From: Curtobacterium sp. HSID17257
Lineage (GTDB): Bacteria > Actinomycetota > Actinomycetes > Actinomycetales > Microbacteriaceae
DNA: 64,000 bases
Reading direction: 5' to 3'
NCBI RefSeq assembly: GCF_003989515.1
Contig: NZ_RBLU01000002.1
Span: 1-64,000, forward strand
Under the pieces are notes generated by a model that was not told the origin of the DNA, did no database searches, and saw only the letters and a list, made by a program, of their open reading frames with translations. Shown here one piece after another: positions 5,101 to 41,007 of this stretch (within the stretch, counting starts at the first letter, position 1; each line of letters opens with the position of its first letter). The translations under genes were made by a program, and so were the position numbers.

Positions 5101-5204
5101 ACACCGCGATCTCCCACTGGGAACGCTCTGTGAATGCGCCCCATCGGGATGCAACCCGCGTGGGACAGTGTTGAGGACGGCAGACGAGCGAGAGGAGCAC
5201 ACAC

Positions 5205-5555
5205 ATGGCTGATCGGAGTCTCCGCGGGATGCGGCTCGGGAGCCAGAGTCTCCAGAGCGAGGAGGGCGTCGAGCTCTCCGACCGGAAGCGCGCGGTGTAC
5301 CAGACCCCGTCGGGGGAGACGTTCGACGTCGTCTTCTCCGCCGAGGCCGACGTACCGCAGACGTGGTCGGAACCCCGGACGGGGCGCGAAGGACGACTGC
5401 TCGGCGACGACGGGATCCCCGTCGAGGTCGCTGCTGAGGACGTCAAGGCGCCGAGGACCCACTGGGACATGCTGCTCGAGCGACGCTCGCGCGAGGAGCT
5501 CGAGGAACTGCTCGAGGAGCGCCTGGCGTTCCTGCGCGCACGACGCGGCGCCTGA
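5205..5555 (+). CDS. rbpA: RNA polymerase-binding protein RbpA
   Basis: RbpA is an actinobacterial transcription factor that binds RNA polymerase and group 1/2 sigma factors and stabilises the open promoter complex. The 116-aa product carries the family N-terminus (MADRSLRGMRLG) and the conserved C-terminal sigma-interaction region THWDMLLERRSREELEELL (about residues 84-102) with a basic end. The middle barrel has no cysteines, unlike zinc-binding RbpA forms. A GAGAGGAG ribosome-binding site precedes the ATG. It is followed directly by a strong convergent terminator. Confidence 0.95.
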   Translation: MADRSLRGMRLGSQSLQSEEGVELSDRKRAVYQTPSGETFDVVFSAEADVPQTWSEPRTGREGRLLGDDGIPVEVAAEDVKAPRTHWDMLLERRSREELEELLEERLAFLRARRGA

Positions 5556-5574
5556 ACCGCAGCTCCCGTACACG

Positions 5575-5616
5575 ACGACGACGCCCGCCCCGGGATCCCG
5601 GGGCGGGCGTCGTCGT
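5575..5616. terminator. Bidirectional terminator between rbpA and the SPFH gene
   Basis: A perfect 20-bp inverted repeat (5575-5594 and 5597-5616) with an AT centre, lying 20 nt past the rbpA stop and 14 nt from the end of the convergent SPFH gene. The arms read ACGACGACGCCCGCCCCGGG. Its position serves both transcription units. Confidence 0.85.
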
Positions 5617-5629
5617 GTCGTGGCTCGGG

Positions 5630-6808
5630 CTACTGTGCGCGCTGCTGGTCGTCGCCCGAACGCTGCTGTCCGCCGTCGAGGTCCGCCTGCGAGGCGTCGT
5701 CCGCGGCCGCGAGGTGCGCGTCGACGCTGCGGTCGGACTCGGCGAGTCGCTCGTCGAGCGCTGCGTCCGGCACGATGTCCGCGGCCGTGGCGTTCGGCCG
5801 CGGGTTCGCCGCTGCGGCGCCGTCCGCCGTCGCGGTGTTCGCCAGGCTCTCGTTGGCGAGCTTCGAGATGCGGGACAGGAAGTCCGTGCCGCCGGCTCCG
5901 GCGACGGGACCGCTGCCGGTGCGACCGGCGGTGAAGCCCTTGGCGATCCCGGACAGCGCGTCCGTGAACTCGCTCGGGATCATCCACAGCTTGTTCGCGG
6001 TGCCCTCGGCGATCTTCGGCAGGGTCTGCAGGTACTGGTACGACAGCAGCTTGTCGTCCGGGTCACCCGTGTGGATCGCCTCGAACACGGTCGCGATGGC
6101 CTGCGCCTCACCCTCGGCGCGGAGCACCTGGGCCTTCGCGTCACCCTCGGCGGCGAGGATCGCGGCCTGCCGCTGACCCTCGGCCTCGAGGATCTGCGAC
6201 TGCTTCGTGCCCTCGGCCTGCAGGATCGCGGCACGACGGCTCCGCTCGGCACGGAGCTGCTGCTCCATGGCGTCCTGGATCGACACGGGCGGCTCGATCG
6301 CCTTGAGCTCGACGCGACCGACCCGGATGCCCCACTTGCCGGTCGCCTCGTCGAGGACGACGCGCAGCTGGCCGTTGATGTTGTCGCGGCTCGTCAGCGC
6401 CTCCTCGAGGTTGAGGCCACCGACGACGTTGCGGAGCGTGGTCGTGGTGAGCTGCTCGACCGCGCCCAGGTAGTTCGCGATCTCGTAGGTCGCGGCGCGT
6501 GCGTCGGTCACCTGGAAGTAGACGACGGTGTCGATCGACACCACCAGGTTGTCCTCGGTGATCACCGGCTGCGGCGGGAAGGACACGACCTGCTCGCGCA
6601 TGTCGATGAGCGGGCGGAGTCGGTCGATGAACGGCACCAGGATGTTGAGCCCCGGGCTGAGGGTCTTGTGGTACTTGCCGAGGCGTTCGACGATCCCGGC
6701 CGTCGCCTGCGGCACGATGCGGATCGCGCGGGACAGGACGACGATCACGAAGATCACGACGACGAGGACGAGGACGATCAGGGCGATCGTCCCGGCTGAG
6801 ATGGTCAC
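5630..6808 (-). CDS. SPFH/Band 7 (stomatin-like, QmcA-type) membrane protein
   Basis: A 392-aa protein with one N-terminal transmembrane segment (about residues 6-28), then a Band 7/PHB domain starting at ATAGIVERLGKYHKTL and a helical stretch of AEG(D/E/Q) repeats typical of stomatin-like proteins. The C-terminal 80 residues are Ala/Asp-rich and probably disordered. Such proteins assemble into large membrane rings and interact with NfeD partners and proteases. The GTG start overlaps the stop of the upstream nfeD-like gene (GTGA) and has a GAGAAAGGG ribosome-binding site, which fixes the start even though the frame continues further upstream. Confidence 0.9.
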   Translation of the reverse strand: MTISAGTIALIVLVLVVVIFVIVVLSRAIRIVPQATAGIVERLGKYHKTLSPGLNILVPFIDRLRPLIDMREQVVSFPPQPVITEDNLVVSIDTVVYFQVTDARAATYEIANYLGAVEQLTTTTLRNVVGGLNLEEALTSRDNINGQLRVVLDEATGKWGIRVGRVELKAIEPPVSIQDAMEQQLRAERSRRAAILQAEGTKQSQILEAEGQRQAAILAAEGDAKAQVLRAEGEAQAIATVFEAIHTGDPDDKLLSYQYLQTLPKIAEGTANKLWMIPSEFTDALSGIAKGFTAGRTGSGPVAGAGGTDFLSRISKLANESLANTATADGAAAANPRPNATAADIVPDAALDERLAESDRSVDAHLAAADDASQADLDGGQQRSGDDQQRAQ

Positions 6809-32948: not shown

Positions 32949-33026
32949 TCGTGGCAAGGAGCGCCGCCGGGAATCATCAGCCCGGTGGCGCTTCCTGCCG
33001 TTCAGCGCGTCTCGATGGACGATGGC

Positions 33027-34259
33027 GGTTTCAAGGGGTCGTTGCAACGGGTGGTTGTTTCGGGTCTGACAGTAGCTGCTGAAACGCTTCCGCCGGGGTG
33101 CGGTGGCCGAGAGTCTTGCGGGGTCGACCGTTGAGTTCGGCGGCGACCTCGAGGAGCCGTTCGGGTCTGCGAATGGTGAGGTCGGTGGACTTCGGGAAGT
33201 ACTGCCGGAGTAGGCCGTTGGTGTTCTCGTTCGAGCCGCGCTGCCACGGCTTGTGCGGATCGCAGAAGTAGATCGCGAGGTCCGTGGCGAGGGTGATGTC
33301 CTTGTGCCGGGCAAGCTCCGTGCCCTGATCCCACGTCAACGACCGACGGAGATGCTCGGGCAGGGCCTGGATGGTGGGGATCATCGCGTCGCGGACCGCG
33401 TCGGCGCTGTGTCCATTGGGGAGGTGGAGCAGCATCACGTATCGGGTGGTGCGTTCGACGAGGGTGCCGATCGCGCTCCTGGCGTTGATCCCGACGATCA
33501 GATCGCCTTCCCAGTGCCCAGGAACAGCCCGGTCGTCGACCTCGGCCGGGCGTTCGCTGATCAGGATCATGTCGCGGATCTTCGACCACGACGCCCGCCG
33601 GGGCTCACCCCGGTGCCGGCGGATGGCGCGGCCGGTGCGGAGGTGTTTGTGCAGGTCAGCGCGCAGGTGCCCGCGGCCCTGCACGAACAGGGACTAGTAG
33701 ATCGTCTCGTGCGACACGTGTATCTCCGGCCGGTTCGGGAAGGACCGGATCAGGTCATCACGGATCTGCTCCGGGGACCAGTTCCTCACCAACCGCAACT
33801 CGACCTGCAGCGCAAGCTCGACCCGGTCCAGCTTCCGGGGCTTGGGGCGCCGCGCTCGAACTCGGCACTGCTTCTCCGCCGAGTACGGCCGGTAATTCCC
33901 GCCAGCTGCAGCGTTCCTGCTGAGCTCGCGACTGATCGTCGATGGCGCCCGGCCGAGGGCTTTCGCGATCGCGCGCACGCCGACACCGTTGAGGCGCAGG
34001 TCCGCGATCTGCAGCCGCTCTTCCTGACTCAGGTACCTGTCCGAGCGAGGCTTGTGGGCGAACGGGTTTCGCCCGCCGGCTGCTTTGACCCATCGGTATC
34101 CCTGACGTCGATCCACGCCGACAGCATCACAGGCCGCCGTACGGCCAAGGCCCTGTCTCAATAGCTCCCAGAACCGAGCCTCTCGAGCGCGGTGTTCCAG
34201 CCTCGATCCCATCTGCAGCACTCCGATTCACGGTGGTGTTGCAACGACCGGCTGAACCC
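33027..34259. mobile_element. IS30-family insertion sequence
   Basis: A roughly 1.23-kb element bounded by imperfect 22-bp inverted repeats (33027-33048 and 34238-34259) that share GGTCGTTGCAAC and match at about 18 of 22 positions. It contains one transposase frame on the minus strand, split by an amber codon. I could not see a convincing target-site duplication. Confidence 0.82.
33031..34221 (-). pseudogene. IS30 transposase interrupted by an in-frame TAG
   Basis: Reading from 34221 gives an N-terminal HTH (LRLNGVGVRAIAKALGRAPSTISREL) and then stops at TAG (33694-33696) after HVSHETIY. The same frame continues directly with SLFVQGRGHLRADLH and the rest of the DDE domain: Asp in HWEGDLIVG, Asp in LTWDQGTE, Glu in RGSNENTNGLL. 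The full reading is 396 codons, normal for the family. Related transposases have Gln at this place, so a single CAG to TAG change explains it. The element is probably immobile by itself. Confidence 0.88.
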
Positions 34260-34320
34260 AAGGATCCCTCAGCGGGCTAGGACGCGAGTTAGGCCTCTGT
34301 TCGGCCGGGCTCAGTAACAC

Positions 34321-36228
34321 TCAAGGAGTGGAAGCAACGAGTGCGCGAGCGGCGACCATTACCTCCATGAGTTCACCACTGGGGGCAGCCGGGCACTCCT
34401 GAGCGGCCAGGGCGTATGTCGCCGCGTTTTTCCCCGCAGCGCCACGACCGCTGTCGACGATTGACTGCCGAGTGCTGTTCCACTCGCCCCACTCGTTGTC
34501 GATTACGTCCTCCAGCCGGTCTGCCCACACGTGGAGAGTGGCGCTGACCTGTCCCTCGGGGTTATCTACGACGGTCTCTCCCAGGTACGCGAGTAGCCGT
34601 CGGTTCGTGCGGATCTCATTCACCTCGGTTGCAGCGGCATCGTGCTCTGGCTTGCCGTTGGCCCGTAGCCGCGAACCGCCGCCCTTGTCGTTATCGAACA
34701 CGACGAGCGTCGGGATGGACAGTTCCGCCAGGATCGCGTGGGGTATGAAGAGATGCTGTTTTCCGCCGGAGTAAGCGACGGTTATGCCCTCCACCTCCAG
34801 AGCGGTCTGTCCTTTGCGTGCGGCAATGCCATCAAGGATGCCCTTATCGGTGTCGCCCTCGACCAAGACGACGGCGTCAGCGAAGAACGCCTCAGCCAGG
34901 TTCTTCGTCCACACCTGATCCCATCTTGACCGCAGGGCGTCATCGGTCACCTCGGAGCCGTTGAGTCGCTTGGTTACGGCATCAAGAGATGCGAGGTGAA
35001 CGCTGACCGATGGATGCTCGTCCGGCGCGTGCTGGCGACGAGTGACACGACGAACCTGGTCAAAGAATCGTGGGTCAATGAAGTATGGGGAATGCGTCGC
35101 GTACATGACCTGGAGCCCGCCTGTGAGGTTATCTGCTAGATCCCGTAGCACTTTCGAGAATACCCGCGCCTGGGTTGGGTGTTGAAACAGTTCGGGCTCC
35201 TCGATGGCGAGGCAGATGACACTGCCGTCGTTACCTTGGGCGCCGCGGGCGGCGAGTAGTTTGAGTGATGAGATCAGCAGCGCTCGCTGGAAGCCGTGCC
35301 CCTGGCGATCCACGCTGGTTTCGTTCAGAGCGTCACTGATGGCGACGCTGATCGATGCCGGGCTGGGGCGTAAGTCTGAGGTGCGCGGGTGAAGTCGAAT
35401 ACCGCGGCCGGCGGTGAAGGCACGCACCTCGGCGGTCAGCGCGTCAGCCAGATCGTTGAGCTGCTCGCCGAGGTGTTCCTTGTTGATCGCCGTTTGCTTC
35501 TCGCTGACCTCTTTCGCAAGAGCCTCGAACGCTGCGTTGGCACTCTTCCGGTCAATGGTGCGTTCGAGGATGCGTCCGATGATCGTCTTCTTGCCCTCCA
35601 CGCTCTCCTCGCTAGCGCGAAGATCAGCCGTCACGAGCACGAAGTCAAACAGCCCAGACAACTTGTTTTGTCCGTTGAACCCGAACAGGTGCGTGACTCC
35701 ACTCTCCGTCTCTTCAAGACGATCGGGGTTGTGACTCTCCCATAGCGTCATCGCCTGGTCAGCAGCACCTTGGTTCTTCCAGTTTGGCAGCCCGGGTGCT
35801 TCACCGCGCGCAATCAGATCATCCCAGAGACCTCTCTTCTCCTTCGCTGATCCCGCGTTCCGGATTTCCTCGAACGCTGGAAATGACCGGGCTCGCGCAG
35901 TCATCTTGTCGCTGCCGTTATCCCAGATTCGCCAGGCCGTGAAGGTCGTGGAGCCGGGGGGAGCGTAAGTCGACCCGAGGGCTTCGCGATCCGCAACGCT
36001 GAGATCGGAGAACTTGACCTCGACGCTAATCCGCCGGTCCTCGACTGCCCCGGAATAAACATCCTCGTCGACCAGGCGTGTTTCACCGTTGAAGAACCAG
36101 TCCAGCGCGCGAAGGACTGTCGACTTACCTGCTCCGTTCGGCCCGACGAACGATGTCAAAGTTTCCATATCGACGCACACGTCCTCGAGGCACCGGAAGT
36201 TCTTGACCCTGATCGACTTGATGCGCAT
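34321..36228 (-). CDS. OLD-family ATPase/TOPRIM nuclease
   Basis: A 635-aa overcoming-lysogenisation-defect type protein. The N-terminal ABC ATPase has Walker A FVGPNGAGKST (about 28-38), Walker B LAIEEPELFQHP and H-loop YATHSPYFID. The C-terminal TOPRIM domain has VVLVEGDTDKGIL with catalytic Glu and LVVFDNDKGGG with metal-binding Asp. Full length is in the class 1 range (also that of GajA). No GajB-type UvrD helicase neighbours it, so it is a stand-alone OLD nuclease. Base composition is lower in GC than the flanks, in line with transfer. A role in anti-phage defence is inferred. Confidence 0.88.
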   Translation of the reverse strand: MRIKSIRVKNFRCLEDVCVDMETLTSFVGPNGAGKSTVLRALDWFFNGETRLVDEDVYSGAVEDRRISVEVKFSDLSVADREALGSTYAPPGSTTFTAWRIWDNGSDKMTARARSFPAFEEIRNAGSAKEKRGLWDDLIARGEAPGLPNWKNQGAADQAMTLWESHNPDRLEETESGVTHLFGFNGQNKLSGLFDFVLVTADLRASEESVEGKKTIIGRILERTIDRKSANAAFEALAKEVSEKQTAINKEHLGEQLNDLADALTAEVRAFTAGRGIRLHPRTSDLRPSPASISVAISDALNETSVDRQGHGFQRALLISSLKLLAARGAQGNDGSVICLAIEEPELFQHPTQARVFSKVLRDLADNLTGGLQVMYATHSPYFIDPRFFDQVRRVTRRQHAPDEHPSVSVHLASLDAVTKRLNGSEVTDDALRSRWDQVWTKNLAEAFFADAVVLVEGDTDKGILDGIAARKGQTALEVEGITVAYSGGKQHLFIPHAILAELSIPTLVVFDNDKGGGSRLRANGKPEHDAAATEVNEIRTNRRLLAYLGETVVDNPEGQVSATLHVWADRLEDVIDNEWGEWNSTRQSIVDSGRGAAGKNAATYALAAQECPAAPSGELMEVMVAARALVASTP

Positions 36229-36759
36229 CTCTACCCCCTGATCGCGGCCGCGCGGCCGAAACTATTGTTACAGCGGCGGGTCTCCAACGCTGGAGCGACA
36301 CGGTAGACGGGCTCGACGACGGTGCGGCACGGCAGGCATGTCGAGCGTGGCTGGCCGCTCATCATCCTCGCTTTGCAGGTTTGAATTCAGCGCTTCGCTC
36401 GTCGATCCTGGATCAAAGCGATGGGCACGCAGATCGCAAAAGCTATGAGAATCGGTTCCGCCCAACGCCCCGCTCCAGGGGTGAATGTGACGCTAGCCTC
36501 CGCCGTAGGGAAGCGGCGGTCCCTGCGAAGGGCGACAGAAACCACCGGTCGGCCGCGGACGGGCCGTCCGATAGCCGGTCGTGAACCGGACGTCCAATAT
36601 TCAGGATGGGATCCTTCGGAGGGTGCACCCACGCGCTGTCCTGTGAGCAGCTCCGCTCAGTGTCGCCCTTCAAGCTTCTCTCCCTGTCGTCCCGCGTCAC
36701 GAAGCGGACCGGTTCTCGAGGTGCGGAAGATCGTCGGTGCGGGCATGGGGTGGTGGGTG
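36229..36759. other. Roughly 530-bp stretch without a confident gene
   Basis: Between the divergent OLD gene and the fluoride operon promoter. A minus-strand frame at 36387-36632 ends in a hydrophobic stretch (PILIAFAICVPIALIQDRR) and might be the remnant of a small membrane protein, but it lacks a ribosome-binding site and the N-terminal part is unconvincing. No hairpin or repeat array was seen. Confidence 0.45.
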
Positions 36760-36765
36760 CATACT
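36760..36765 (+). promoter_or_regulatory. Putative -10 box of the fluoride operon
   Basis: CATACT would start transcription near 36772, just upstream of the riboswitch aptamer. The -35 region is not clear. Confidence 0.4.
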
Positions 36766-36779
36766 GGTGGTGTCTTCGG

Positions 36780-36874
36780 ACCCGGCAGTGGGGCTTGCCG
36801 GACCCAACCTCGACACTCGTCGACAACAGTCCCTATCTCAGCTGGTTGCGCTTCTGTGCGCCTGAGGTAGGGAG
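36780..36874 (+). ncRNA. Fluoride riboswitch (crcB motif) with translational switch
   Basis: The order of parts fits the crcB aptamer: P1 CGGCA/TGCCG (36783-36787 and 36796-36800) with loop GTGGGGCT; linker with AACC; P2 TCGAC-ACTC-GTCGA (36810-36823); then CAACAGTCCCTATC, where GTCCC can form the pseudoknot with GGGGC of the P1 loop. The expression platform is legible: CCCTATCTCAG (36831-36841) is complementary over 11 bp, with one G-U, to CTGAGGTAGGG (36862-36872), which covers the GGGAG ribosome-binding site of the ATG at 36880. Pseudoknot formation would remove part of the sequestering strand and expose the site. The P1 loop reads GUGG where the usual motif has AUGG, so it is a divergent example. 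Confidence 0.8.
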
Positions 36875-36879
36875 ATGTC

Positions 36880-37386
36880 ATGGTCGAGTCGAGCACTGCC
36901 GGTGTTGTCGTGGTCGGTGTGCAGTCCGGGCAGGGGCACGACGTCGTCGGTGTCGCGGCTGCCGTCGCTGAACGCTTCAGCGCCCGCCTGGTGTGTGTGG
37001 TCGTCGATCCGGCGCTGCTGTCAGCGGGGGTGCGTGCGGACGGGTCGGAGATCATCGAACCGATCGACCCGGACACGGCGGACAGCGACCCGCAGCAGCT
37101 CCCCGACGAAGACATGCGGGTCATCAGAGATCTTGCTGCGGCGCGATCGGTCGACGTGGACTTCGTCTCCCGCGTCGGGGACCCGAGTCACGCACTCGCT
37201 GCGGTGGCTGAGGAACGTGACGCGGTGATGATCGTCGTCGGATCCCAGGCTGGCCGACGCCGGATAGCGGAACTGCTCACCGGGTCCGTCGCCGCGCACC
37301 TGACGCATCAGCAGCACCGGCCGATACTGGTCGTCCCGCACGACCCGGTCGGCGCCACCGTCCTCCTCCCGTCGGAAGCCCCGTGA
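36880..37386 (+). CDS. Universal stress protein family protein
   Basis: A 168-aa UspA-fold protein. The ATP-binding signature G-2x-G-9x-G-(S/T) is present as VVGSQAGRRRIAELLTGSVA near residues 114-133, and the C-terminal strand is RPILVVP. An insert of about 25 acidic residues follows the first strand pair. It is the first gene behind the fluoride riboswitch, and its ribosome-binding site is the one controlled. Its stop overlaps the next gene (GTGA). Its role in fluoride stress is not known. Confidence 0.88.
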   Translation: MVESSTAGVVVVGVQSGQGHDVVGVAAAVAERFSARLVCVVVDPALLSAGVRADGSEIIEPIDPDTADSDPQQLPDEDMRVIRDLAAARSVDVDFVSRVGDPSHALAAVAEERDAVMIVVGSQAGRRRIAELLTGSVAAHLTHQQHRPILVVPHDPVGATVLLPSEAP

Positions 37387-38129
37387 CGGGCATGCTGACG
37401 CTCCTGCGGCATGGGGAGAGCACCGCGAACGAAGCCGGCACCTTCACCGGGCTCCTCGACGTCCCGCTCACGCACCGCGGCGAACGGCAAGCATCCGCAG
37501 CCGGACAGCTCCTCCGGTCGAACCACATCACGCCGGACGTCGTGGTCACCTCCACATTGCGCCGTGCCGTCCGCACCGCCGAACTGGTCTGCGACGCCCT
37601 CGGGACACAGCTGCCCACGGAAGCGGTGTGGCAGCTCAACGAACGCAACTACGGTGCCCTGACCGGGATGACGAAGACCGACGCCCGTCGGATGCTCGGT
37701 GACGACGAGTACGTGCGGCTCCGCAGGTCCCGTACCGGCACACCGCCACCGATGTCGCTGCACCTGTGGGAGGAACTGCGGTCGAGCTCCGCGCTGCGCG
37801 GCCTGCCCGACGGCGCCCTCCGACGCACCGAGGCACTCTCGGACGTCATCAAGCGGGTCCGCCCCGTCTTGCACGACCGGCTCCTGCCGATGGTGCGGTC
37901 AGGGCGGAGCGTCCTCGTCGTCGCGCACGGGAACTCGCTCCGCGCACTCTGCGCATGCATCGACGACCTCACCGACCCGGAGCTCGAGCAGCTCAACCTG
38001 CCGACCGGGCAACCCGTGCAGTACCACCTCGCCCCGACGGGTGCTCTCGTCCCGCGGGGTGGGGCGTTCCTGGATCCGGTAGCAGCACAGCACGCCGCGG
38101 CGCTGGTCGCGGCAGAAGGCGGAACATGA
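37383..38129 (+). CDS. 2,3-bisphosphoglycerate-dependent phosphoglycerate mutase-like enzyme
   Basis: A 248-aa histidine phosphatase superfamily member of the dPGM type. The motifs are LLRHGESTANEAGTFTG (catalytic His about 11), LTHRGERQA, LNERNYGALTGM and the second His in VVAHGNSLRAL. The ERNYG segment and length mark a glycolytic mutase (3-phosphoglycerate to 2-phosphoglycerate), one step before enolase. The GTG start overlaps the usp stop; an ATG three codons later is an alternative. It sits in the same operon as enolase and pyrophosphatase. Confidence 0.88.
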   Translation: MTGMLTLLRHGESTANEAGTFTGLLDVPLTHRGERQASAAGQLLRSNHITPDVVVTSTLRRAVRTAELVCDALGTQLPTEAVWQLNERNYGALTGMTKTDARRMLGDDEYVRLRRSRTGTPPPMSLHLWEELRSSSALRGLPDGALRRTEALSDVIKRVRPVLHDRLLPMVRSGRSVLVVAHGNSLRALCACIDDLTDPELEQLNLPTGQPVQYHLAPTGALVPRGGAFLDPVAAQHAAALVAAEGGT

Positions 38130-38629
38130 CCACCCGAACGGACACCCCGATGCCCGACGACCAGCTCCCTCCCGACCCGGACGTCGACGTCTCCGACCCG
38201 GCAACGACCATGCGGCCGGTGCATCTGCGGTGGCGGTACGTCGGCCTCGTCGCCGTCGGTGGGGCCGGCGGTACTGCCCTCCGCGACGTCATCAGTAGCG
38301 TGCTCCCTGCCGATGGCGGGGTGAGTTGGTCGATCTTCTGGATCAACATCACCGGGGCGCTGGCCCTCGGTGTGCTGTTGGAAGCGCTCGCGCACCGTGG
38401 GCCCGATGCCGGTCGCCGGAGGGTGCTGCGGCTGCTCCTCGGGACAGGGGTCCTCGGCGGGTTCACCACCTACAGCACCCTCGCCGAGTCCACCGCCGCC
38501 CTGTTCCTCGACGGCCACGGCCTCGCTGGCACCGGCTACGCGCTCCTCACTGTCCTATCCGGCGCGATCGCGACCGCCTGCGGTCTCGTCGTCGCCGGCT
38601 GGTTCCGTCCCCGAACGGAGGAAGCATGA
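38126..38629 (+). CDS. crcB: Fluoride channel CrcB/Fluc, first copy
   Basis: A 167-aa four-segment membrane protein that exports fluoride as an antiparallel dimer. The family motifs are [27 protein letters not shown] and [12 protein letters not shown]. The first 40 residues are an acidic hydrophilic extension not present in the second copy. Two adjacent copies often make a heterodimer. Start and stop both overlap neighbours by ATGA, so translation is coupled. Confidence 0.94.
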
Positions 38630-38997
38630 ACGCCGCCCTCATCGTCGTCGTCGCCCTCGGTGGCGGTGCCGGCGCTGCCGGTCGGTTCCTCCTCGACGGG
38701 CTGATCAACACCGGCCGGGAGTTCCGGCTCCCCGTCGGCACGCTGACGATCAACATCACCGGGTCGCTGCTGCTGGGGATCATCGTCGGCGCCGCCACGC
38801 ACCTCGGCGCGGTGCCGGTCGCGGTCCTCGGCACCGGGGTGATGGGCGGCTACACCACGTTCAGCACCGCCAGCTTCGAAACCGTCCGCCTCGCCCGCAG
38901 CGGACGGATCACCGCCGCCGCGATCAACGGTCTCGGAATGCTCGTCGTCTCCGTCGCCGCCGCGACCGCCGGCATCCTCCTCGGCGGCACCCTGTGA
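38626..38997 (+). CDS. crcB: Fluoride channel CrcB/Fluc, second copy
   Basis: A 123-aa channel of typical length with four membrane segments. Motifs are [28 protein letters not shown] and [13 protein letters not shown], including the Asn and Phe residues lining the fluoride path. It overlaps the first crcB by 4 nt and its stop overlaps a GTG of the pyrophosphatase frame. The pair probably forms the working export channel. Confidence 0.94.
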
Positions 38998-39044
38998 CCA
39001 CCCCACTCACTGACCACACACCCGCTCCAGCACCGGAGGTACCC

Positions 39045-39530
39045 ATGCTGTTCGACGTCACGATCGAGATTCCCCGCGGCAGCGGCAACAAGTACGAGGT
39101 CGACCACACCACCGGCCGGATCCGGCTCGACCGGGCGGTGTTCACCAGCATGGTGTTCCCCCAGGACTACGGCTCCATCGACAACACCCTCGGCGATGAC
39201 GGCGACCCCCTCGACGCCCTGGTGCTCCTGCCCCGTCCCACGTTCCCCGGCGTCGTCATCACGGTCCGGCCGGTCGGGATGCTGCGCATGGTCGACGAGA
39301 ACGGCGGCGACGACAAGATCCTCACCGTTCCCGCTGGCGACGACCGCTTCGCGCAGCTGCGGGACATCACCGATGTGCCGGAACACACGCTGGCGGAGAT
39401 CGAGCACTTCTTCGCCCACTACAAGGAGATCGAGCACGGCAAGCACGTCACCACCAACGGGTGGGCCGACCGTGCTGCTGCCGAAGCCGTCATCCGCACC
39501 GCACAGAACGCCCACACCCGACACCCGTGA
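39045..39530 (+). CDS. ppa: Family I inorganic pyrophosphatase
   Basis: A 161-aa soluble pyrophosphatase (PPi to 2 Pi). The family signature [21 protein letters not shown] and [15 protein letters not shown] are present with the metal-binding Asp residues. The ATG at 39045 has GGAGGT 4 nt upstream; a GTG at 38994 overlapping the crcB stop would add 17 residues. Family I enzymes are strongly inhibited by fluoride, which explains a spare copy behind a fluoride switch. The next gene, enolase, follows a structured 142-nt gap. Confidence 0.93.
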
Positions 39531-39672: not shown

Positions 39673-41007
39673 ATGAACGACTACATCAGCGGCATCCACC
39701 ACCACGGAGCCCATCAGGGTGAGTACGTCACCCACCACGACCACCCCGTCACCATCGACGCCGTCCACGGCGCCCGCATCCTCGACTCCCGCGGCTACCC
39801 GACCGTCCGCGTGTCCCTCGAGCTCGACGACGGCCGCACCGTCACCGGGGACGCCCCCGCGGGCGCATCCACCGGCGCCCACGAAGCCGTCGAGCTCCGC
39901 GACGGCGGTTCCGCGTTCGGCGGCCGCGACGTCACCCAGGCGCTCCACCTGATCGACACCGACATCTCAGGGCTCCTCACCGGCCGGTCGTGGTCGGCGA
40001 TCGGGCAGGTCGACGCCGCCCTTGCCGAACTCGACGGCACCACCGGGTACCGCCGGCTCGGCGCGAACAGCGTTGTCGCCACCTCAATCGCCGCATCCAG
40101 GGCCCTCGCCCATGCCGCGGACCTCCCGCTCTGGCAGTGGATCGCTGAGATCACCGGCTCGACGCCGCGGATGCCGGTCCCGCACTTCAACGTCCTCAAC
40201 GGCGGCGCGCACGCAGCGAACGAGCTGGACTTCCAGGAGTTCATGATCGCTCCCGTCAACGCAGGCTCGATGGCAGACGCCGTCCGAATCGGCGCAGACG
40301 TGTACCACGCTCTCGCGGCGCTGGTTCGGGACCGGTTCGGCAGCCTCGGCCTCGGCGACGAGGGCGGTTTCGCACCGTCGATCGCTGCGCCCGAGGAAGC
40401 GCTCGACCTGCTCGTCGACGCGATCCGTACCGCCGGCTACGAGCCGGGCGTCGATCAGGTGGCGATCGCGCTCGATCCGGCCGCGAACGAGTTCTCCCAG
40501 GGCGACGGCTCCTACCGGGTGCTCAACGACAGCCTCGACCGGGACGGGCTGGTCGACTACTACCGGCACCTCATCGACACGTATCCGATCCGGAGCATCG
40601 AAGACGGGTTCGCGGAAGACGACCATGAGGGGTTCCGCCGCATGCAAGCGGCGCTCGGCGACCGGATCCAGATCGTCGGCGACGACCTCTACGTCACCGA
40701 CCCACAGCGGATCCGCGACGGCGGCGAGCAGCAGCTGACGAACGCGGCACTGATCAAGCCGAACCAGATCGGGACCGTCTCCCAGACCCTCGGCGCGATC
40801 GCCACCGCCAAGAGCATCGGGATGGCCAGCATGGTCTCCCACCGTTCTGGGGAGACCACGGACACGTTCATCGCGGACCTCGTTGTCGGGACCGGCACCG
40901 GGCAGATCAAGTCCGGCGCACCCGGCCGCGGGGAACGCGTCGCGAAGTACAACCGGCTCACCGAGATCGCCGAGCAGCACCCGGAGCTGCCCTACGGACT
41001 GATCTGA
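39673..41007 (+). CDS. eno: Enolase with His-rich N-terminal extension
   Basis: A 444-aa phosphopyruvate hydratase (2-phosphoglycerate to PEP). Catalytic segments are GASTGAHEA, FQEFMIAPV, LGDEGGFAP, SIEDGFAEDD, the signature LIKPNQIGTVSQT with its Lys, and SHRSGETTD. About 25 extra residues at the N-terminus are rich in His (ISGIHHHGAHQGEYVTHHDH). AAGGAGCG precedes the ATG at 39673. Fluoride with phosphate is a classic enolase inhibitor, so this is likely a supplementary, perhaps less sensitive, enzyme. The chromosomal copy must lie outside the window. Confidence 0.93.
   Translation: MNDYISGIHHHGAHQGEYVTHHDHPVTIDAVHGARILDSRGYPTVRVSLELDDGRTVTGDAPAGASTGAHEAVELRDGGSAFGGRDVTQALHLIDTDISGLLTGRSWSAIGQVDAALAELDGTTGYRRLGANSVVATSIAASRALAHAADLPLWQWIAEITGSTPRMPVPHFNVLNGGAHAANELDFQEFMIAPVNAGSMADAVRIGADVYHALAALVRDRFGSLGLGDEGGFAPSIAAPEEALDLLVDAIRTAGYEPGVDQVAIALDPAANEFSQGDGSYRVLNDSLDRDGLVDYYRHLIDTYPIRSIEDGFAEDDHEGFRRMQAALGDRIQIVGDDLYVTDPQRIRDGGEQQLTNAALIKPNQIGTVSQTLGAIATAKSIGMASMVSHRSGETTDTFIADLVVGTGTGQIKSGAPGRGERVAKYNRLTEIAEQHPELPYGLI

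Follow-up and report, generated by a model that had tools for sequence, protein, structure and literature searches.

Fluoride riboswitches of the crcB RNA motif (RF01734) consist of a P1 stem with an 8-nt loop, a P3 hairpin, an AACC junction and a 6-bp pseudoknot, and they are located before fluoride genes. In the solved aptamer, PMC11586693 describes A6-U38 as a reversed Watson-Crick pair and A40-U48 as a reversed Hoogsteen pair. PMC5533749 reports a fluoride-induced operon under an RF01734 aptamer in Enterobacter cloacae FRM. In 64,000 nucleotides of Curtobacterium sp. HSID17257 (NZ_RBLU01000002.1, positions 1 to 64,000; hereafter the window, meaning the whole stretch analyzed), a divergent element of this kind stands before a six-gene operon (Table 1). 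We are highly confident that positions 36782-36874 correspond to a G6-C38 subtype of fluoride riboswitch, which would turn translation on. The aptamer numbering (6, 38, 40, 41 and 48) follows that of T. petrophila. Besides the architecture and location given above, the subtype shares U7, G8, A40 and U48 with RF01734, whereas it differs by G6-C38, by C41 and by a nearly invariant GGGGCY/RGUCCC pseudoknot (among the matches of the R1 model described below).

The preliminary description of this DNA had proposed a divergent fluoride aptamer joined to a switch of the Shine-Dalgarno (SD) sequence, and its P1, 8-nt loop, second stem (its P2, here named P3) and loop pseudoknot can all be read directly in the sequence. 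The pseudoknot (36790-36795 with 36828-36833) has 6 bp, one G-U among them, and the A40-U48 linchpin is present as A36826 and U36834. The 11-bp duplex that had been drawn over GGGAG, between CCCTATCTCAG and CTGAGGTAGGG, is confirmed, with one G-U included and U36830-A36873 lengthening it; when the next 102 bases were shuffled 2000 times with dinucleotides preserved, no equally good partner for 36830-36841 arose. Both pairings had been called mutually exclusive, and they do have the strand 36830-36833 in common, as well as U36834-A36835 if the linchpin forms. The association with fluoride export and fluoride-sensitive enzymes typical of RF01734 is also found here. On the other hand, the A6-U38 pair is kept but changed to G6-C38, and C36827 takes the place of U41. 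The loop deviation noticed earlier at A6 is real, but the divergence was understated, since U38 and U41 differ too. The A6 and U38 differences appear to be one base-pair swap.

We propose that without fluoride 36830-36841 would pair with 36862-36873, hiding the SD of the universal stress protein (Usp) gene that opens the operon. With fluoride and Mg2+, the aptamer would dock, and the pseudoknot and the A40-U48 linchpin would hold the shared strand; the outer half of the hairpin would then be blocked and the SD released. The aptamer would act as the canonical one, except for G6-C38 instead of the reversed Watson-Crick A6-U38 and C41 instead of U41. We infer fluoride as the ligand, as well as the geometry of the 6-38 pair and the direction of the switch. 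Control is most likely exerted on translation, as in the fluoride riboswitches of P. syringae and B. pseudomallei, which are named as translational controls in PMC13273304. The likeness to these two concerns a fluoride aptamer with control on translation; in the present subtype the anti-SD sequence forms part of the nearly invariant pseudoknot strand.

A 105-base DNA query against 59 related genomes revealed the element in many genomes of the same genus. These relatives occupy two settings, the Usp-type operon and a crcB-crcB-PGM operon (PGM, phosphoglycerate mutase) with a different SD hairpin. From 12 relatives we built a covariance model, R1, which holds P1 and P3 but not the pseudoknot. 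Searches with R1 and with the mixed model R2 covered draws of Actinomycetota, the large draws being scored with stricter filters by which weak matches are lost. With the window's genome included, R1 gave 34 matches of at least 40 bits in 30 of 249 family genomes and matches at this score in 8 of 396 phylum genomes; in draws of the same sizes, RF01734 exceeded its cut-off in 13 and 68 genomes, respectively. CrcB, Usp, PGM, enolase or pyrophosphatase were found by tblastn within up to 6 kb downstream of 60 from 64 R1 matches, several of them near-copies. The four without a fluoride-operon gene downstream are L065, L095:1501, L073:1-50 and L137; the contig of L073:1-50 has crcB, and L095:1501 is inside an 18-kb island.

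In the survey headed INTERMEDIATES, the mixed covariance model R2 matched (E<=1e-4) in 82 of 394 genomes of the class Actinomycetes, to which Curtobacterium belongs. An alignment of 91 distinct aptamers, drawn mostly from this class, takes in most R2 matches of at least 33.6 bits that had lacked a locus, as well as five added family loci. The G-C type was found in 61 genomes from 31 genera and 18 families, and in six genomes it occurs together with the A-U type (counts that omit L273-L277 and one L264 row). We suggest that the element is a widespread actinobacterial subtype of the known fluoride riboswitch, not recognized by the standard model. No description of the subtype was found in the titles and abstracts of the open-access papers searched.

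The structure is well preserved among these relatives. In 47 distinct R1 matches, aligned to a model with P1 and P3 and without the pseudoknot, 97.1% of the cells of the structure and pseudoknot are paired, against 35-43% when the partners are slid by 1-3 columns; in the 91-aptamer set the value is 98.2%. Changes on both sides occur in P1, P3 and the last pseudoknot pair of the 47-sequence set, while the other five pseudoknot pairs are nearly unvarying and say little about covariation. A decayed canonical riboswitch without function could explain the missing Rfam match and the changed conserved bases, but a G-C form recurring this widely with 97-98% of its cells paired makes decay extremely improbable.

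The pairing of the SD is conserved as well. When loci were folded from the pseudoknot strand to the start codon, the SD was paired with positions 42-49 in 49 from 51 distinct R1-type loci, a test that omits L108 (whose match ends at model position 46) and the loci without an SD call (L081, L095:1985, L073:1-50 and L137). A cruder test on the wider set showed SD pairing in 87 from 100 loci, with pair types varying at positions 49-53; 10 rows had no call, and several of the 13 misses, the window's included, arose because the script had picked wrong start codons. Moreover, 77 from 115 loci were equalled by at most 1 of 50 shuffled leaders. Such a strong and conserved hairpin could by itself be a ligand-free ribosome-binding-site hairpin (an RNA thermometer or a simple attenuator) with P1 and P3 being incidental. 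However, a plain hairpin has no need of the covariation seen in P1, P3 and the pseudoknot, nor of the conserved AACC, A40 and U48, and we give this possibility very little credence. Hidden SDs are often coupled to Rho, so the aptamer could be right and control still be mainly transcriptional, by Rho-dependent termination or RNA decay, instead of by SD access. This seems unlikely, since no terminator-like site was found at 36600-36950 and the SD pairs with the pseudoknot strand across loci.

Subtype elements and canonical actinobacterial aptamers align one-to-one. In a combined alignment of 24 rows, the 6-38 pair is A-U in 13 and G-C in 11, never being broken, and A40-U48 is A-U in all of them (and in 89 of the 91 in the wide set). 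Canonical loci have A6, U38 and U41 in all 41 parsed from 43; L113 and L184 were unparsed and L168 is out of register, and all three show A6, U38 and U41 by eye. The 91 distinct aptamers include intermediates, with 6/38 being G-C in 66, A-U in 20, G-U in 3 and A-C in 2. Considering also position 41, we found GCC (62), AUU (18), GCU (4), GUC (3), AUC (2), ACU (1) and ACC (1), counts that keep two doubtful rows, L271 (ACC), which looks misaligned, and L272 (among GCU), which looks false. The 66 G-C aptamers thus have C41 in 62 cases and U41 in 4. G-U and A-C represent the single-step routes between A-U and G-C, with position 41 shifting partly independently. Six rows of this alignment (L231, L235, L263, L264, L270 and L273), all G6, form a further small group with A7 instead of U7 (GAGG loops). 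In a tree of 118 CrcB proteins, each labelled by its aptamer type, the label must change at least 9 times, and well-supported branches force 3 of these changes. We do not take the tree to prove that A-U and G-C were exchanged repeatedly, since it is confounded by paralogues, transfer and long branches.

The phosphates of nucleotides 6-8 and 41-42 coordinate the Mg2+ cluster in crystal structures of the aptamer. The subtype's three changes, all located at the pocket or next to it, occurred jointly, and a few G6 matches precede MFS, PPE or dynamin-like genes, which would be consistent with the same fold binding another ligand (a different anion or metal) and lying near fluoride genes for other reasons. 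Nevertheless, CrcB and fluoride-operon enzymes dominate downstream, a canonical A-U aptamer likewise precedes a PPE gene, one island is served by both subtypes and, as said above, some genomes hold both; we therefore regard another ligand as very improbable. The island (L278, G066:C1:232000-251999) has about 18 kb and contains nine R2 matches in both orientations, four G6 and five A6, the weakest being an A6 match of 16.6 bits. Its neighbouring genes encode PGM-enolase, Usp, pyrophosphatase, a complex-I/formate-hydrogenlyase-like gene set and a Fic protein. The presence of both aptamer types in shared islands argues for a shared ligand.

Other arrangements were observed around these aptamers. 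In L066, a match over the RF01734 cut-off (6350-6419, plus strand; A6, U38 and C41 by eye) is back to back with a G-C type aptamer (6003-6061, minus strand). In genus g110, PPE-family genes lie directly 3' of a G-C aptamer (L262:179-1318) and of a canonical one (L217:440-1468); a role of PPE proteins in the handling of fluoride is thus conceivable. Dynamin-like GTPases (L238:1-825 and L270:2-1105) and MFS transporters (L248, L137 and L255) are also found 3' of G6 aptamers. In L065, a 268-aa protein without Pfam match (5168-5971) is encoded 3' of a G-C type aptamer, about 9 kb from a fluoride operon, and the P1 of this aptamer is altered at several pairs.

Several results weigh against a fluoride riboswitch at this locus, in recognition, gene context, SD release and the pocket itself. 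RF01734 is absent from 36700-36900 even at E<=10, and none of 63 G6 aptamers scanned (62 G-C and one G-U, in sets of 20, 23 and 20) reaches its gathering cut-off of 34 bits. In the wider set, 11 from 67 G-C rows lack a recognized fluoride gene within the stretch examined (up to 1.5 kb), and 38 of the 115 loci are not clearly better than shuffled leaders. The predicted energies are -25.8 kcal/mol for the SD hairpin, -11.8 for what remains once the strand is taken and -8.1 for the pseudoknot duplex, so that the hairpin should win at ligand-free equilibrium and the switch needs kinetics or binding energy. Comparing folds with and without the pseudoknot, as the preliminary description had proposed, SD accessibility does rise, but the predicted release is only partial: when the pseudoknot occupies the strand, the unpaired probability goes from about 0 to 0.47, 0.56, 0.19 and 0.24 at 36870-36873 (P1 and P3 being forced, as unforced folds misfolded), which tempers the mechanism. 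Regarding the pocket, U41 is highly conserved and U41A leaves the B. cereus switch unresponsive according to PMC11077080, while C is found here, and PMC3902895 describes the isolated reversed Watson-Crick G:C pair as rather unstable.

The covariance match to RF01734 that the preliminary description had put forward as a check is thus lacking, and the scan of the window with Rfam at gathering score gave no match either. For this locus, the first of the two outcomes which that description had named as refuting, the lack of a match also at a relaxed threshold, was thus observed. Three Rfam matches at E<=10 (microRNA, snoRNA and lncRNA families) were rejected as chance. In the own genome, RF01734 at E<=10 gave 8 weak matches, none of them at this locus, which were set aside because all 14 control genomes also ring at this threshold. 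Among the controls, 12 from 16 A6/U38/U41 loci and 4 from 5 A6 aptamers of L278 are above the cut-off, together with the single A-C locus and none of the two AUC loci. At E<=1, however, 11 from 20 G6 loci were matched by RF01734 full-length and at the aptamer's place, with 19.5-28.9 bits. These sub-threshold matches in relatives and the graded intermediates argue for homology to the fluoride riboswitch family, while the absence of any score over the cut-off leaves the element out of RF01734 as the model stands. The subtype thus appears homologous to known fluoride aptamers yet outside RF01734 as modelled. Considering the gene context, covariation, intermediates, sub-threshold matches of its kin and conserved SD pairing, the best reading remains the one proposed earlier, a divergent fluoride aptamer coupled to switching of the SD.

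If the pseudoknot forms first during transcription and is locked by fluoride, it could resist the hairpin; such a co-transcriptional order is argued for transcriptional fluoride switches in PMC11077080. As for U41, PMC8004769 describes a B. cereus residue whose imino and 2'-OH contact A N7 and a phosphate, which we equate with U41 after renumbering by 3, the offset of the B. cereus numbering given in PMC8752731. Lacking this imino, C41 could make use of its amino group only. For the 6-38 pair, the Levitt pair of tRNA (G15-C48; PMC3902895) shows that a reversed Watson-Crick G-C can make a tertiary contact; it is stabilized by other contacts or by a divalent metal bound to N7 of the guanine. The Levitt pair belongs to the tRNA elbow, however, and not to a ligand pocket. 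A stabilizing metal at G6-C38 is plausible because Mg2+ ions make up the fluoride pocket, and the changed pair may be tolerated in this way, as in the Levitt pair. A-U and G-C exchange at 15-48 in tRNAs. It is possible, although we hold it only tentatively, that 6-38 is a Levitt-type reversed Watson-Crick G-C needing, in addition to the three-Mg2+ cluster, one more divalent ion at N7 of G6, with an affinity, Mg2+ dependence or metal choice unlike those of the A-U aptamer, and that in the class Actinomycetes fluoride is sensed predominantly by this form.

Table 1. Parts of the RNA element and genes of the downstream operon (window positions).
Feature	Position	Strand	Evidence or remark
P1 5' strand CCGGCA	36782-36787	+	Read from sequence; covariation
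P1 loop of 8 nt, GTGGGGCT, positions 6-13 (G6, U7, G8 ...)	36788-36795	+	G6 replaces canonical A6
5' pseudoknot strand GGGGCT	36790-36795	+	Inside P1 loop
P1 3' strand TGCCGG	36796-36801	+	Read from sequence; covariation
Junction ACCCAACC	36802-36809	+	Its AACC aligns with AACC of canonical aptamers
P3 hairpin TCGAC-ACTC-GTCGA (TCGAC 36810-36814, GTCGA 36819-36823)	36810-36823	+	Sequence; covariation
C38 A39 A40 C41	36824-36827	+	C38 partners G6; A40 linchpin to U48; C41 for conserved U41
3' pseudoknot strand AGTCCC (positions 42-47)	36828-36833	+	Sequence; covariation
U48 (A40 linchpin partner) and A49	36834-36835	+	Alignments
Anti-SD strand CCCTATCTCAG	36831-36841	+	Overlaps pseudoknot strand and U48
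SD-side strand CTGAGGTAGGG	36862-36872	+	Pairs with CCCTATCTCAG
SD-like GGGAG	36870-36874	+	5 nt before ATG at 36880
Universal stress protein (Usp)	36880-37386	+	Pfam PF00582; no NCBIfam match
2,3-bisphosphoglycerate-dependent phosphoglycerate mutase (PGM)	37383-38129	+	PF00300; TIGR01258 above cut-off
CrcB family fluoride channel, copy 1	38126-38629	+	PF02537 above cut-off; NCBIfam CrcB models below cut-off
CrcB family fluoride channel, copy 2	38626-38997	+	PF02537 above cut-off; TIGR00494 slightly below; PDB CrcB relatives
Inorganic pyrophosphatase (fluoride-inhibited enzyme)	38994-39530	+	PF00719
Enolase (fluoride-inhibited enzyme)	39673-41007	+	PF00113/PF03952; TIGR01060 above cut-off

Judging by their products (Table 1), the six genes Usp, PGM, CrcB, CrcB, pyrophosphatase and enolase form a fluoride operon. 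The operon of E. cloacae FRM, as described in PMC5533749, is likewise controlled by a fluoride riboswitch and contains uspA, gpmA, eno, crcB and a pyrophosphatase gene, in an island with transposases at its flanks, but it has an RF01734 aptamer, a Mn-dependent pyrophosphatase, a single crcB, a different gene order and a sixth gene. Shortly 5' of the aptamer, TANNNT-like elements were observed by eye in the window (CATACT, 36760-36765) and in several of 15 loci, and a sigma-70 promoter scan found no site. The closeness of these elements to the aptamer suggests that the transcript may start near P1.

The closest copy by protein is in a Tersicoccus record (99.8% identity over 5742 bases). The operon is also on a Micrococcus luteus plasmid (99.9% identity over 4401 bases) and, with lower identity, on plasmids of Clavibacter, Curtobacterium, Microbacterium and others (22 records); the leader was found in 21 plasmid records. 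Upstream of the operon, the window has a stretch similar to IS30-family transposases (about 33008-34266) and, just before the operon, an OLD-like ATPase-TOPRIM protein (34321-36228, minus strand). Further upstream, the matches on plasmids carry arsenite and metal-efflux genes. We suggest that the surroundings of the operon are a mobile resistance region.

Surveys based on RF01734, such as the 2026 functional survey of 1901 sequences described in PMC13273304, would pass over this subtype, which is commoner among our 91 distinct aptamers than the A-U form (66 versus 20). The natural exchange of A-U for G-C is a test of the reversed Watson-Crick pair and of U41 in a metal-mediated anion pocket. 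For actinobacterial hosts, the element is a candidate GC-rich translational fluoride switch, plasmid-borne in several relatives.
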